From an uncultured Kordia sp. (lineage in GTDB: Bacteria > Bacteroidota > Bacteroidia > Flavobacteriales > Flavobacteriaceae), in NCBI RefSeq assembly GCF_947489565.1, contig NZ_CANLEA010000012.1:1-64000 (forward strand): a stretch of DNA of 64,000 bases, in the 5' to 3' direction. The translations under genes were made by a program, and so were the position numbers. Below the pieces are notes generated by a model. The model searched no databases. It was not told the origin of the DNA and worked only from the letters and a program-made list of their open reading frames with translations. Positions 46,711 to 62,805 of this stretch are shown piece after piece (the stretch's first letter is position 1; every line of letters begins with the position of its first letter).

Positions 46711-47250
46711 CTAACTACAGACTTTACACTGTGTTTTTTCTTTGACTTCTCCTACGAGAAAACCTTGATCGTTTAGTTTGTAATCGCAACAATCCATATA
46801 GCCTTGTACAATGAGTTTTCGACCGCGTTGAATTTGTGATTTTACAGTTGCCAATGGAAGTTTTAATTGTGCTGCAATTGCTGCTTGTTTGATGCCTTTG
46901 ATATCTGATAAGAATAATGGATCTCTGTATTTTTTAGGTAGATTTTTAATAATTCCAGGCAAGCAATCTTTTTCTGAATGTGCATATTCTTCTGTGGAAA
47001 TAATAGTTTCTTCTTTGTTTAAAGGAACTTCTTTATTTGATATACGAAAATAGTCTAATACAGTATTTCTACTAACACTTAACAACCATGATTTTACTTT
47101 ACTTTCCTCGGATACGGTTGCTAATTTAGCATGTACTTTTAAAAACACTTCTTGAACCAAATCATCTGTAATTTGAGCATCTTTCACTTTACTCATGATG
47201 AAGCGTTTTACATCATCTGCATAACATTCCCAAACTTCTGTAGTCGTCAT
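46711..47250 (-). CDS. SigZ-like RNA polymerase sigma factor
   Basis: 179 residues from the Met in 'MTTTEVWECYADDVKRF' (47250); a start eight codons earlier (47274) is also open. Sigma-70 region 2 is 'SKVKDAQITDDLVQEVFLKV' with 'SWLLSVSRNTVLDYFR', and region 4 is 'LFLSDIKGIKQAAIAAQLKL' plus 'LATVKSQIQRGRKLI'. The tail has four Cys ('YMDCCDYK', 'QCKVCS'), which could bind metal and sense redox or metal state. It follows a 34-residue Cys-rich gene after 50-74 bases. No anti-sigma gene is adjacent. Confidence 0.88.
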   Translation of the reverse strand: MTTTEVWECYADDVKRFIMSKVKDAQITDDLVQEVFLKVHAKLATVSEESKVKSWLLSVSRNTVLDYFRISNKEVPLNKEETIISTEEYAHSEKDCLPGIIKNLPKKYRDPLFLSDIKGIKQAAIAAQLKLPLATVKSQIQRGRKLIVQGYMDCCDYKLNDQGFLVGEVKEKTQCKVCS

Positions 47251-57592: not shown

Positions 57593-57739
57593 ATGAAAAG
57601 TAAAAAGTTAATCAAACTAACCAAAAAAACAATTTCTAATTTAAACAATGCTGTAGGAGGACTTGCTCATAAAACTTTGAGATACAGTGAATGTAACATT
57701 TGTTTTTCTATTGATGTTATTGATTGTCGAAAAGGTTAA
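57593..57739 (+). CDS. GG-leader peptide precursor, orphan
   Basis: 48 residues, shorter than standard limits. 'MKSKKLIKLTKKTISNLNN' and 'AVGG' form a leader of the KxxKLxKKTIxxL type. The core of 25 residues has three Cys ('SECNICFSIDVIDCRKG') and ends in Gly. A UUCG terminator follows after five bases, which supports a real, short transcript. It stands alone, divergent from the alpha/beta hydrolase gene and about 200 bases before the CpeT-like gene. Confidence 0.7.
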   Translation: MKSKKLIKLTKKTISNLNNAVGGLAHKTLRYSECNICFSIDVIDCRKG

Positions 57740-57937: not shown

Positions 57938-58567
57938 ATGAAAAATTCGCTTATATACGCAATGATTACGCTATTTTGTTTAACTATTTCAAGTTGCGAT
58001 AGTTATAAATCTGTAAGTACTGCAGATGAATTGAATGCATTACAAACATTGATGACAGGTTCGTTTGATAGTAGCGAACAAGCTACTGCTGACGATAGTT
58101 ATTATAATATTTCCTTGCACATGTATCCTATTTGGACTTCTAAAGATGGACATTGGTTATATGTAGAACAAGCCTTGAATAGCAATCAAAATAAACCGTA
58201 TCGCCAACGTGTGTATCAACTAGAAAAGTTAGAAAATGGTAAATTTTCAAGTAAAGTTTACACCTTAGAAAACCCAAAAGAAGCTGTTGGTAAGTGGAAA
58301 ACTCCAACCTACTTTGATCAGTTTGATACTTCTATGTTGAAAGAACGTGAAGGCTGTGCTGTTATTTTAGAGAAAAAAGGTGATTTCTACACCGGAAGCA
58401 CAAACGAAAAAGATTGTAAAAGTACTATGCGTGGTGCTAGTTATGCAACTTCTGAAGTAACCGTTAAAGCAAATGTGATTGAAAGTTGGGACCGCGGATT
58501 TGACTCCAATGACGAACATGTTTGGGGCGCAGAAAAAGCAGGATATGTTTTTAAGCGTTTAAAATAA
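57938..58567 (+). CDS. CpcT/CpeT family lipoprotein
   Basis: 209 residues. Lipobox 'TISSC' (Cys20). The CpeT-type beta-barrel is recognised from 'LNALQTLMTGSFDSSEQA', 'ISLHMYPIWTSKDGHWLYVE', 'YRQRVYQLEKLENGKF', 'GCAVILEKKGDFYTGSTN', 'DCKSTMRGASYATSEV' and 'SWDRGFDSNDEHVWGAEK'. In cyanobacteria such proteins attach bilins to phycobiliproteins. No phycobiliprotein gene exists here, so the domain probably binds another tetrapyrrole or ligand. It lies upstream of the RebB operon on the same strand, 147 bases away. Confidence 0.88.
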   Translation: MKNSLIYAMITLFCLTISSCDSYKSVSTADELNALQTLMTGSFDSSEQATADDSYYNISLHMYPIWTSKDGHWLYVEQALNSNQNKPYRQRVYQLEKLENGKFSSKVYTLENPKEAVGKWKTPTYFDQFDTSMLKEREGCAVILEKKGDFYTGSTNEKDCKSTMRGASYATSEVTVKANVIESWDRGFDSNDEHVWGAEKAGYVFKRLK

Positions 58568-58714
58568 AAAGTACCGTTGTATTTACTTTAGTAATTCTTC
58601 TTAATACAATCAGGTAGTACTACGTGATTTTATTCTTCTCAGTAACGAAACTCTTTATATCGTTGCCTGAATGATGGGCTATTACATATATTTAAGTTCA
58701 TAATTTTAAATAAT

Positions 58715-58990
58715 ATGTATATGAAAGCACAAACTAATAGTGTGGATACCAAAATTTTAGATTCTGTGATAGAGGAAAATATGATCTTACAAGCATCTGC
58801 TCCTACAGTATCATCATCAATGTCTTTTCAAACTTTATCTCATGCACTTTCTATGGCAATGGAAAGCGCTGCCTTAAATCAGCAAAAAGTAAATATTTTA
58901 TCTACTACGGTAACTTCTACCTGCGTAAGACATTTGCTTGGAGACATTCATACAAAAGCTGATACTACAGCAAAGGATAAATTATCATAA
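58715..58990 (+). CDS. RebB-family R-body protein (first of three)
   Basis: 91 residues (a second ATG two codons on, at 58721, is possible). The RebB/'killing trait' domain covers about 10-75: 'DTKILDSVIEENMILQASAP' and then the Ala/Ser/Gln-rich 'SHALSMAMESAALNQQKVNI' ending 'VTSTCVRHLL'. RebB-type subunits polymerise into insoluble ribbon coils (R bodies) that can unroll and pierce membranes. It is the start of a three-gene operon; the next gene begins 26 bases on. No signal peptide is present, as expected for an intracellular polymer. Confidence 0.82.
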   Translation: MYMKAQTNSVDTKILDSVIEENMILQASAPTVSSSMSFQTLSHALSMAMESAALNQQKVNILSTTVTSTCVRHLLGDIHTKADTTAKDKLS

Positions 58991-59016
58991 CCCATCAAAT
59001 CAAAAAATAATTCATT

Positions 59017-59265
59017 ATGGCAACATCAAAAAAGACAACACCAGAAGAAAAGATAGTAACATCATCCCAAATAACAGATGCGGTTACACAAACAAATGTA
59101 AAAGTAGTTTCAGAAACACCTGCAATGGCAATTGGAAATGTTTACCAAACCGCAGCACATTCTTTGGGACTTCTTTATGAAAATTCAGTGAGTACTCAGG
59201 GACAAACAGAAATAGCATATAATGCTACAATATCAGTATGTGTACAATCTTTAATCCGAAATTAA
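59017..59265 (+). CDS. RebB-family R-body protein (second of three)
   Basis: 82 residues. This is the closest to the classic RebB pattern: 'SSQITDAVTQTNVKVVSETP', 'AMAIGNVYQTAAHSLGLLYE' and 'YNATISVCVQSLIR'. A short Lys/Thr-rich N terminus (1-18) precedes the domain. As in other R-body proteins the helices are amphipathic and small, suitable for polymer formation. The next gene starts one base after its stop codon, so translation is coupled. Family members need more than one RebB-like subunit for ribbon assembly. Confidence 0.88.
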   Translation: MATSKKTTPEEKIVTSSQITDAVTQTNVKVVSETPAMAIGNVYQTAAHSLGLLYENSVSTQGQTEIAYNATISVCVQSLIRN

Positions 59266-59266
59266 T

Positions 59267-59599
59267 ATGAGTTCAGTAAATATAAACAATCAAATAGAAG
59301 ATGCTATTAAATCTATTAATACACTTTTAAAAAGCGCAGACAACGATAATTTAGAGTTGATCGCAAACCAAGCACTTGTAGAAGCTGCATCTTTAGCAAT
59401 GCTAAACATGGTGAGTCAACAACAACAATTATACATGCTGCAAAACGCGGCGACAACTGTTGCTGTAAAAGCAATGTTAGAGACAAACCCAGAAGAAGCT
59501 TTAAAAATTATGAATCAGACGATAGAGAACAATAATATTACAGCAAGCTTGAGTGATTTTGAAAAAGTAATCAGACAAATCTCAGGTAAGAAAAAGTAA
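59267..59599 (+). CDS. RebB-family R-body protein (third of three)
   Basis: 110 residues. The RebB-like part (about 3-70) reads 'NINNQIEDAIKSINTLLKSA', 'NQALVEAASLAMLNMVSQQQ' and 'NAATTVAVKAMLE'. A C-terminal extension of about 40 residues ('PEEALKIMNQTIENNN', 'ISGKKK') is not found in the other two and might act in nucleation or regulation. The gene ends the operon, with a strong hairpin at 59626. No RebA-, RebC- or RebD-like gene and no dedicated activator is seen nearby. Confidence 0.8.
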   Translation: MSSVNINNQIEDAIKSINTLLKSADNDNLELIANQALVEAASLAMLNMVSQQQQLYMLQNAATTVAVKAMLETNPEEALKIMNQTIENNNITASLSDFEKVIRQISGKKK

Positions 59600-59625
59600 A
59601 TTATAGTTTTTTGTTTTATAAGATA

Positions 59626-59678
59626 AAAACAGTGTCACGCGGCGTAAAGACTAAAAAACGCTTAGTGACACTGCTTTT
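59626..59678. terminator. Bidirectional terminator after the RebB operon
   Basis: AAAACAGTGTCAC (59626-59638) and GTGACACTG plus CTTTT (59665-59678) form a 9-bp perfect stem, with an inner GCG/CGC pairing and flanking A/T tracts. It serves the RebB operon and the convergent repeat-protein gene. Confidence 0.82.
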
Positions 59679-59699
59679 GTAAAAGTATCATACTACTAA

Positions 59700-62600
59700 C
59701 TATTTTAATATGATTCTTTTTGTCAATTGTGCGTCTTGATGCGTAATTTTCATAAAATACACACCAGACGTATATCCGCCAAGATTCACAAATTGTTGTG
59801 TTTGATTGATGGTTTCAAAATTTCCTTGATAGATATTTCTTCCCGTAATATCAAACACATTTACAGTAACATCTGTAAGAGATGTATCTGCTTTTATATA
59901 TATGATTCCATCCGTAACAGTTGGCGCAATTGTGACACCTAATATGTTATTTTCTATGGATGGAACGCTTAAAGTTTCACTTAAGTTTGTTGATGTTGGA
60001 TAGAAAACCGAAAATGAATTGGTTGAAAATTGTACATAGTAATCGTTATCCAAATATGAAACGCCTGTTGCATTGATAAAATCTCCTCCAGAAACATAAC
60101 CCGCAGTACAGGTATTTCCTGCTACTTTCATGAGTTCTAACCCTGAAATATTTGAGAGATTACTATCTGCTAGAATTAAATCATCTACCTCATCACCAAG
60201 TGTGTACAAGCGTACATTTACATTGGTTGATGGCGCATTTGTGGTACTGATAGAGACTTCTCGCCGTGAATACGGTTGCCCAGAGAAGTCTCTTGTATCA
60301 GCATTTTCAATGAATAAAGTTGTACTTACGTTTCCTAAATCGTTTCCGTTGGCATCGATAGCAGCGACAATATCGCCAGATGCATCATAAATGGGAACCC
60401 ATTCGTCGGTATTTCCTTGTGTTGTTGAAATTTCAATCGTTGGTATGGTTTCACATATTCCTGGTGTTCCTGCTGCAATTGCTGGTGTTCCTTCCAAGCA
60501 AAATGTAACTTCATTTGCTAATATCTCTGACTTGGCAACTTGTATGTAATAGGTATTTCCGAATACGACAGGTATGACACCATCGTCTGTAAAACAAGCA
60601 ACTTCTGTTCCGCCGCAAGATTCGTATACGGCAAAGGTGTTACTAAAATTTGTGCTTGTAAGCGATATGTTTCCTGTAATTGGTGCTTCAAAAGAATACC
60701 AAGCATCTAACCAAGTTTGTAAACTATTAAAACAACTTCCGATGTCTGTTATAGTTGTTTCTGTAGCACCTCTGAGGTCGACTGTAACATTTTGTGTCCC
60801 ACACACACCAATACCTGCGATTGAAATCGTTTCTGCATTTGCACAATCATCGTTCGGTAATATTTCAAACGCTCTGATATTGAAACTCTCTGCGGAAGCG
60901 TATATGGATAAACTGTAGGCTCTTAACAAATAGGTTCCTGCGGTTAAATCATAAGTATAGGTATCATTATTGGAACATACAATTTCTGTTCCGCCACAAC
61001 TATCATATATTGTAAAACGATCTAAACTGCTAACACCTGTAATTCGAACGTTTCCATTGACTGGCATGGTAAATTCATACCAAACATCTAAATAGGCATT
61101 ACCAGCCGTATCACAGCTCGCTTCTAAACTTTCGGTAGCAGCACGGTTATCATAATTAATAGTTGTTTCTGTAGTAATATCATCCATTATGACTTCTGCA
61201 GTAGCACATTCGTCATTTGCAGCTGTCTCAAAAGCTTGTATATTGAAACTATCTGCGGAAGCATATATAGCTAGACTGTATGCTCTTAAGAAATAGGTTC
61301 CTGTAGTTAAGTTGTATACAAATGTATCATTATCGAAACATATAATTTCTGAACCTCCGCAACTGTCATATAGCGTAAAACGATCTAAACCATTGACGCC
61401 TGAGATGTATAAATTTCCATTGACTGGCATCGTAAATTCATACCAAACATCTAAATAGGTATTGCTTGCCGTATCGCAACTTGCTTCTAAACTTTCGGTA
61501 GCATTTCTATTGTCAAAATTGATGGTTCTTAGCGTGGTAATATCATCCATAATCACTTCTGCAGTAGCGCATTCATCATTCGCGACTGTTTCAAAAGCTT
61601 GAATTCGGAAGCTATCAGAAGAAGCGTAAATTGCTCTACTATACGCTCTTAAATAGTAAGTTCCTACAGTGAGATTGTAGACAAATGTATCGTCGGTAGT
61701 ACATATTATTTCTGAACCGCCACAACTATCATATAAGGTAAACGCATCTAAACTGTTTACACCTGTTATTTGAAAATTTCCATTGATTGGCATTGTAAAT
61801 TCATACCAAACATCTAAATACGTATTGTTTATATTATCGCAGCTTGCCTGTAGACTTTCGGTAGCGGCTCTATTGTCAAAAGCAATGATTCTTTCAGTGG
61901 TAATATCGTCTGTAATAACTTCTGCTGTAGCACATTCATCATTCGCTACCGTTTCAAAGGCTTGGATATTAAAATTATCTGCAGAAGCATGAATAGATCG
62001 ACTGTATGCTCTAAGCGTATACGTTCCTGTGGAAAGATTATAGAAAAAAGTATCGTCTGATGAACAGGCAATTTCATTACCTCCACAAGCGTCATATAAT
62101 GTAAACAAATCTAGACTATTTACTCCTGAGATGAGTAGATTGCCATTCACTGGCATGGTAAATTCATACCAAACATCTAAATAGATATTGCTTGCTGTAT
62201 CGCAACTTGCGTCCAAACTTTCGGTAGCGGCTCTGTTATCAAAACTGATAGATCGTAGTGTCGTAATATCATCGGTAATCACTTCTGCTGTAGCACATTC
62301 ATCATTAGCAATCGTTTCAAAAGCTTGAATGCTAAAACTATCTGCACCAGCTTGAGCTAAAGTACTTGTTGCACGGAGTTTATAGGTTCCTGTTGAAAGG
62401 TTAAAGAAAAATCCATCATCATAAAAACAGCCTATTTCAGCGCCACCACAGGTATTGTATAAGGAAAAACCATCTAAGCCATTCACACCCGTTATTCGAA
62501 TGTTTCCGTTAACAGGCATGGTAAATTCGTACCAAACATCTGGATAAGTGGTAGCAGCAGTATCGCAACTACTTAACAAACTTTGTGTTGCCATGCCATT

Positions 62601-62741
62601 ATTAAAACTTACTAATATGGCATTTGTAGTAGTTACAGAGATAATTTCTGCATTTGCACAGTCATTGTTTGCTGGAACTTGTCCATAAGTATACATAACA
62701 GTACTTAGGAATATTCCAAAGAAAAGTAATTTTGCCCTCAT
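59700..62741 (-). CDS. Secreted repeat protein with type IX secretion sorting domain
   Basis: 1013 residues from the ATG at 62741; a GTG four codons earlier is not needed. After a signal peptide ('LFFGIFLSTVMYTYGQ') there are six tandem repeats of about 117 residues, each starting 'ANDECATAEVI' (the first and last are variants: 'NNDCANAEI', 'NDDCANAETI') and containing 'WYEFTMPVNGN', 'SCGGSEI' and 'TGTYxLRAYS'. Then a linker domain (about 745-930) and a type A sorting domain ('VNVFDITGRNIYQGNFE', 'GYTSGVYFMKITHQDAQLTK') follow. It is exported by the type IX system and is likely an adhesin or matrix protein. Confidence 0.9.
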   Translation of the reverse strand: MRAKLLFFGIFLSTVMYTYGQVPANNDCANAEIISVTTTNAILVSFNNGMATQSLLSSCDTAATTYPDVWYEFTMPVNGNIRITGVNGLDGFSLYNTCGGAEIGCFYDDGFFFNLSTGTYKLRATSTLAQAGADSFSIQAFETIANDECATAEVITDDITTLRSISFDNRAATESLDASCDTASNIYLDVWYEFTMPVNGNLLISGVNSLDLFTLYDACGGNEIACSSDDTFFYNLSTGTYTLRAYSRSIHASADNFNIQAFETVANDECATAEVITDDITTERIIAFDNRAATESLQASCDNINNTYLDVWYEFTMPINGNFQITGVNSLDAFTLYDSCGGSEIICTTDDTFVYNLTVGTYYLRAYSRAIYASSDSFRIQAFETVANDECATAEVIMDDITTLRTINFDNRNATESLEASCDTASNTYLDVWYEFTMPVNGNLYISGVNGLDRFTLYDSCGGSEIICFDNDTFVYNLTTGTYFLRAYSLAIYASADSFNIQAFETAANDECATAEVIMDDITTETTINYDNRAATESLEASCDTAGNAYLDVWYEFTMPVNGNVRITGVSSLDRFTIYDSCGGTEIVCSNNDTYTYDLTAGTYLLRAYSLSIYASAESFNIRAFEILPNDDCANAETISIAGIGVCGTQNVTVDLRGATETTITDIGSCFNSLQTWLDAWYSFEAPITGNISLTSTNFSNTFAVYESCGGTEVACFTDDGVIPVVFGNTYYIQVAKSEILANEVTFCLEGTPAIAAGTPGICETIPTIEISTTQGNTDEWVPIYDASGDIVAAIDANGNDLGNVSTTLFIENADTRDFSGQPYSRREVSISTTNAPSTNVNVRLYTLGDEVDDLILADSNLSNISGLELMKVAGNTCTAGYVSGGDFINATGVSYLDNDYYVQFSTNSFSVFYPTSTNLSETLSVPSIENNILGVTIAPTVTDGIIYIKADTSLTDVTVNVFDITGRNIYQGNFETINQTQQFVNLGGYTSGVYFMKITHQDAQLTKRIILK

Positions 62742-62805
62742 GTAATTTGCCACTATTTTTAGTTTACGAGGATGAAAATACTTTGTTTACAGATAGATAT
62801 AAATA

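Follow-up and report, generated by a model that had tools for sequence, protein, structure and literature searches.

The three-gene cassette and its RebB match

The window analysed here is a stretch of 64,000 nucleotides from an uncultured Kordia species (NCBI RefSeq assembly GCF_947489565.1, contig NZ_CANLEA010000012.1), towards the end of which three consecutive small genes, hereafter the trio, precede a hairpin and lie between two larger genes:

57938..58567, forward strand: left flank, CpeT/CpcT-family protein (PF06206, 154 bits), genus backbone, outside the system
58568..59622, forward strand: cassette DNA, from the CpeT stop to the hairpin, missing at the matching site of relatives
58715..58990, forward strand: gene 1 (R1 type), 91 aa, divergent short Reb, PF11747 45.6 bits
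59017..59265, forward strand: gene 2 (R2), 82 aa, short Reb, PF11747 76.9 bits, part of the conserved core
59267..59599, forward strand: gene 3 (R3), 110 aa, diverged Reb, PF11747 26.9 bits, part of the conserved core
59623..59680, no strand assigned: hairpin, fold of -24.3 kcal/mol, z -3.5
59700..62753, reverse strand: right flank, large protein with repeats and, by eye, a secretion-type C-terminus; genus backbone, outside the system

The open reading frames of the trio are intact and separated by 26 bases (genes 1 and 2) and 1 base (genes 2 and 3), in agreement with the layout given in the first-pass annotation, which had also assigned a RebB-type domain to all three proteins and proposed an HMM search. 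That search bears the assignment out, each protein scoring above the curated cut-off of PF11747 (RebB, Pfam; 24 bits, whole-protein score). With two custom Reb models, the real proteins reached 36-42 (gene 1), 70-77 (gene 2) and about 21 bits (gene 3), as compared to a maximum of 16.1 bits for shuffled versions (1000 of each). Gene 3 is the weakest RebB case of the trio, with a small margin over the shuffles, and because unrelated ORFs of around 590-600 aa also attain 17.5-20 bits with PF11747. Weak PF11747 matches (E ~0.001-0.03), mostly ORFs of this length, were discarded as chance; one of them, inspected in L007, resembles by eye a DXP synthase. Independent support for the relationship of R3 to Rebs comes from a three-protein R3 profile, which matches the adjacent R2 with E values of 4e-7 to 2e-6 in three of four genomes, and no family other than RebB exceeded its curated cut-off with R3. 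AlphaFold2 monomer models were poor (mean pLDDT 52.5 for gene 3 and 50.6 for gene 2) so that structure lends no support; the search of solved structures returned nothing for gene 3 and a single match for gene 2 (E 0.88), which was set aside.

A variable site in the genus

The trio is found in one of 11 genus genomes, the window's own. The CpeT/CpcT gene is present in seven of these 11 (the window's genome included), and the right-flank protein has matches in genus genomes, G002 holding fragments only. Both flanking genes are kept and the trio is absent in G001, G003 and G006, where the gap between the flanking stops measures about 89, 66 and 182 bp, respectively, versus 1132 bp in the window; G005 retains a CpeT fragment only, and its gap is about 75 bp. 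Four genomes offer no clean empty site, three having no CpeT match (G007, G008 and G010) and the fourth, G002, a largely missing right flank. A gain of the cassette here would be simpler than its loss in relatives. Since small ORFs with a GG leader-like motif occupy this position beside the same hairpin in G004 and G009, the site can be regarded as a variable slot.

The hairpin, previously described as a terminator shared by the three genes, is indeed strong and placed 3' of the trio. Lying between the trio and the convergent gene, it probably terminates transcription from both sides, though it was not among the results of a consensus terminator scan. Its association with the trio is not specific: visual inspection showed a similar hairpin in the gaps of G001, G003, G004, G005, G006 and G009, all devoid of the trio, and it is therefore most simply the older element.

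Searches for a carrier of the cassette covered plasmids, phages and viral contigs. R3 had no match in any of these; gene 2 had none in phages and the Reb profile none in viral contigs. Among plasmids, gene 2 matched 17 records with Rebs (from Azospirillum, Vibrio, Burkholderia and others), the best identities being mostly below 60%. Together, these searches give no pointer to a phage or a known plasmid.

Two further features of the neighbourhood were recorded. Small GG leader-like peptides, possible ribosomal peptide precursors by eye, are encoded at 57593-57739 of the window (forward strand) as well as in the G004 and G009 slots (L088, L093). An ECF sigma factor encoded at 46711-47250 (reverse strand) is 54-56% identical to one that sits immediately next to the cassette, in divergent orientation, in G987, G1147, G1150 and G1185; it also occurs near this slot in the cassette-free G001, G002, G003, G008 and G010, is absent from the G005 and G006 stretches, and is probably backbone, curious as the shared neighbourhood may be.

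The R2-R3 pair and its carriers

Gene 3 had been credited with a unique C-terminal extension; this tail is in fact conserved and defines the R3 subfamily, present in six genomes of three genera (the window's genome, G286, G987, G1147, G1150 and G1185, hereafter the carriers), with gene 3 being 44-48% identical to R3 from the two other genera. R2 is directly followed by R3 in all six, at spacings of 1, 4, -1, -1, -17 and -20 bases. G987 and G1185 have R2-R3 only, and the order R1-R2-R3 is found in the window's genome, G286, G1147 and G1150. G286 (90% complete), placed in another genus of the family, shares the gene order of the trio at identities of 36% over 67 aa for gene 1, 45% over 65 aa for gene 2 and 48% over 101 aa for gene 3.

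On genome contigs, gene 3 alone gave no match and the sole match of a two-row R3 profile, run as two short patterns of low sensitivity, was the MAG Kordia sp. NORP58, which is G286. Applied to 376 genomes of the order, the two-row profile identified R3 in two (the window's own and G987); nine of the 11 matching genomes (E 0.0008-0.008), some with RebD-like genes as in G494, were not counted as R3. A three-row profile found R3 in four of 166 genomes of the genus of G987, namely G987, G1147, G1150 and G1185. PF11747 matches above the cut-off occurred in 4 of 397 sampled genomes of the family and 6 of 395 of the phylum, two overlapping samples that both include the window's genome; the R3 proteins of some relatives themselves reach just 14.2-23.7 bits, below this cut-off. 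No further Reb above the PF11747 cut-off was detected in G1147, G1150 (a single contig), G1185, G987 or G286, lone sub-threshold matches of 13-14.5 bits being present in G1150 and G286. As these relatives carry no other Reb above the cut-off, the cassette can stand alone.

A genome survey for a conserved fourth component had been suggested; part of the carriers have a small fourth gene, R4, of 58-62 aa and located 3' of R3 in three genomes:

G1150, L127:7592-7768: R4
G1147, L126:8083-8265: R4
G286, L059:9126-9314: R4

R4 has a polar N-terminal part and a conserved KAQ..AE.AV segment, and the two R4 proteins searched had no Pfam match. The R4 profile returned nothing in the window, the C7 stretches (contig C7 belongs to the window's genome, see below) or the G987 and G1185 stretches.

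By NG86, with dS values of up to 2.0 and thus near saturation, the two species pairs gave a dN/dS of 0.08 and 0.11 for R2 and of 0.09 and 0.08 for R3, as against 0.42 in the one R1 pair and 0.51 in the one R4 pair; R1 and R4 are both weakly conserved. YN00, which yielded a value for the R1 pair only of the six pairs, gave 0.14, by which selection on R1 may be tighter than the NG86 value implies. In both species pairs compared, which come from the relatives, R2 and R3 show purifying selection, and the lasting core is the pair of gene 2 and gene 3, with R1 and R4 optional. These data bear on the possibility that the trio is a decaying remnant of a formerly complete reb cluster, an idea to which the strong divergence of gene 1, the missing R4 in the window and the patchy presence within the genus would lend themselves. 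Such decay appears highly improbable given that every one of the six genomes has an intact R2 and R3, that dN/dS is near 0.1 for the pairs compared, and that the R2-R3 order recurs across three genera.

Relation to other Rebs and possible function

Rebs are already known as a family, as are their spread and their occurrence in Flavobacteriales. Kordia algicida has long been listed as a Reb carrier (PMC3583457, PMC5525439), and reb groups 2 and 3 are reported to be favoured in Flavobacteriales (PMC13430693). In the window's genome, six Rebs exceed the PF11747 cut-off: the trio, two in a cluster on contig C7 and one further along the same contig at C7:232406. The cluster is the following:

C7:208555-210549 (L008:8502-10580), reverse strand: fuller, canonical-type reb cluster with RebP-, RebD- and RapA-like genes and two small genes

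The names RebP, RebD and RapA were given by size, order and sequence likeness to the descriptions in PMC8322103 and to Caedibacter RebD, rather than by comparison with the Pseudomonas proteins. NCBIfam was uninformative, giving no Reb match and also missing the C7 RebP- and RebD-like proteins. The RapA-like protein has 278 aa with the conserved segment GMMVQDLQSFLKGFEQ, and the cluster adjoins response regulator and histidine kinase genes (by eye). A RapA profile matched in five of 18 genomes, G286 not being among them; within the window's genome it matched solely at C7, with nothing beside the trio. G002, G204, G494 and, according to the RapA profile, G602 have a similar RebP/RebD/RapA-like set. 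The earlier statement that no RebA, RebC or RebD gene is recognisable thus holds for the immediate surroundings of the trio, which include no canonical partners, but not for the genome with its fuller cluster on C7; moreover, RebA, RebB and RebD are described as homologous to each other (PMC3583457).

The trio differs from structural Rebs in its C-terminal features. Residues were tallied on one model alignment of 42 structural, 13 RebD-type, 10 R1/R2 and 6 R3 proteins, leaving out one incomplete sequence as well as Reb-like proteins scoring under 95 bits (structural) or 110 bits (RebD); as score to the structural-Reb model decided which proteins entered the structural set, the tally is partly circular. 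At the Gly column of the TTQG motif, structural Rebs have Gly in 42/42, R1/R2 have Cys in nine of ten and Ser in one, R3 has Ala in 6/6, and the RebD-type shows a gap in ten, Ala in two, Gly in one and Cys in none of 13. The Cys is found in all six R2 proteins and corresponds to Cys75 in gene 2 and Cys70 in gene 1. The Tyr of the Y..DT module, present in 41/42 structural Rebs, is found in none of the 16 cassette proteins (R1, R2 and R3), nor is the Gly; gene 2 ends before Y..DT, and no protein of the trio combines the Gly with this module. QITD, Tyr, NAV and QQ motifs are named diagnostic for Rebs, in which cysteines are rare (PMC13430693). By eye, the front part of R2 retains QITD (5/6) or QVTD (1/6), the Tyr of domain 2 (6/6) and NAV/NSV (6/6), and QQ is found in five of the six R2 proteins, the exception being the window's copy. 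Gene 2 accordingly has QITD and NSV and no QQ, gene 1 has QQ only (its NSV match is N-terminal), and gene 3 has QQQQ and neither QITD nor NAV.

A first phylogenetic tree was set aside due to long-branch warnings and low support. In the second, R3 forms one clade (support 100/99), R1 and R2 of G286, G1147 and G1150 form another (95/91) and gene 2 groups with the R2 proteins of G987 and G1185 (93/71). Gene 1, which has a long branch, is positioned next to R3 (93/94) and was treated as unplaced; from this placement, it may not be an ortholog of R1 elsewhere. R1, R2 and R3 all lie outside the RebD group, which is itself weakly supported (57/90).

Comparison with described systems is consistent with a separate type. 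Like the group 2 reb clusters (RebP/RebD/RapA, Pseudomonas), of which the C7 cluster looks to be an example, the cassette consists of RebB-family proteins encoded by small tandem genes; it differs in having no adjacent RapA-like gene (nor is there one in G286) and no Reb with Gly and Y..DT, and in having the R3 subfamily, seen solely in the six carriers. The rebA-rebB-rebC-rebD locus of Caedibacter taeniospiralis (type 51 R-body) is likewise very small, whereas its RebA and RebB possess the Gly and a long C-terminal tail, unlike the trio. RebA, RebB and RebC are enough for R-bodies in E. coli and RebD is reported dispensable there (PMC3583457). RebC, described in the same source as having no homologs elsewhere and no homology to other Rebs, contrasts with R3, which is Reb-related. 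RebD and group 3 Rebs are short and end soon after domain 3, like R1 and R2, which are set apart by the Cys at the Gly column and by their position in the tree. Divergent Reb-like proteins in clusters also make up the secondary and 'unknown' Reb groups of a 2026 survey, in which, as described, clusters of fewer than three Reb genes are dropped and proteins with less than 40% identity to every seed are termed 'unknown' (PMC13430693). Two-gene cassettes would fail this filter, in contrast to the clusters reported there, so that part of the cassette type could have been missed; whole loci can escape surveys demanding at least three Reb genes. No description of the two- or three-gene cassette type or of R3 was found in the open-access papers searched.

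The locus had been proposed to be a minimal version in which three RebB paralogs build the ribbon. A compact RebB locus able to stand alone in relatives fits part of this proposal, but the core is the R2-R3 pair, and the C7 cluster is another R-body candidate in the genome. No trio protein has the structural-Reb C-terminal module, which makes the three-paralog reading unsafe. Our tentative preference, held at somewhat less than even confidence, is for a distinct minimal Reb cassette that probably makes an R-body-like polymer of small size, built chiefly from R2 and with R3 as an indispensable partner. From the sequences we infer such a polymer, a partner role for R3 and possibly toxicity along the following lines. 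R2, with its RebP-like front part, no C-terminal domain 4 and a Cys replacing the structural Gly, would polymerise through the Reb helix, together with R1 where present, to give an insoluble ribbon or filament in the cytoplasm; R3 would bind 1:1, or nucleate or cap it, supplying C-terminal contacts absent from R2; and the polymer, once released, would behave as a small R-body, stiffening or unrolling in an engulfing cell. Several observations argue against this: with the Gly and the Y..DT Tyr gone, ribbon-building contacts may be lost; R2 is RebD-like in shortness and score, and RebD is reported dispensable for R-bodies in E. coli (PMC3583457); the models are poor; R1 and R4 are weakly conserved; and G286 has no RapA-like gene.

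The loss of the structural-Reb Gly and C-terminal module, along with the conserved tail of R3, would also suit a polymer other than an R-body, R2 and R3 forming for example short filaments, pores or bundles active on membranes, with a role in, for instance, bacterial competition or stress. This reading is rather unlikely, R3 matching RebB alone above the curated cut-off and no solved structure. It is less likely still that the trio serves as a set of RebD-like helpers regulating or modifying the R-bodies of the C7 cluster. A canonical-type cluster for them to act on is present in the same genome, R1 and R2 are as short as RebD and score about equally with the RebD-type and structural models, and over 127 bp of its front part, gene 2 shares 76% identity with the C7 RebP-like gene. 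However, dependence on canonical Rebs cannot be a general property of the cassette, since five of the six carriers, one of them a single contig, have none above the cut-off.

Unrolling R-bodies do mechanical work on membranes, and to our knowledge the contribution of each individual Reb protein is poorly known. Under the preferred reading of a minimal Reb-type polymer, a reduced locus with no other detectable Rebs in five genomes would offer a two-gene system for what ribbon building and unrolling require, and the R2-R3 cassette lets one ask whether domain 4 and the invariant Gly are dispensable. A more specific version, very unlikely as it stands, is a two-protein R-body-type machine in which the Reb function would be divided between the tail-less, Cys-bearing R2 and the tailed R3, the two having to co-assemble, and oxidation of the Cys outside the cell would lock or trigger the polymer; if true, no R-body system would be smaller and no earlier one would have a redox handle.

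Other Reb-related genes were encountered outside the cassette. The C7 reb cluster also adjoins a divergent gene resembling a GH25 lysozyme by eye. An orphan structural Reb at C7:232406-232609 (L009:13364-13666, reverse strand) groups with Azospirillum Rebs (99/96), and G004 and G006 have one Reb each that is like this orphan by eye. G1031 (L118:5246-5701) and G498 (L060:2980-3459) encode single proteins of 151-159 aa with a Reb-like C-terminal half, that of G1031 lying off its reb-cluster contig and that of G498 being the sole PF11747 match found in its genome.
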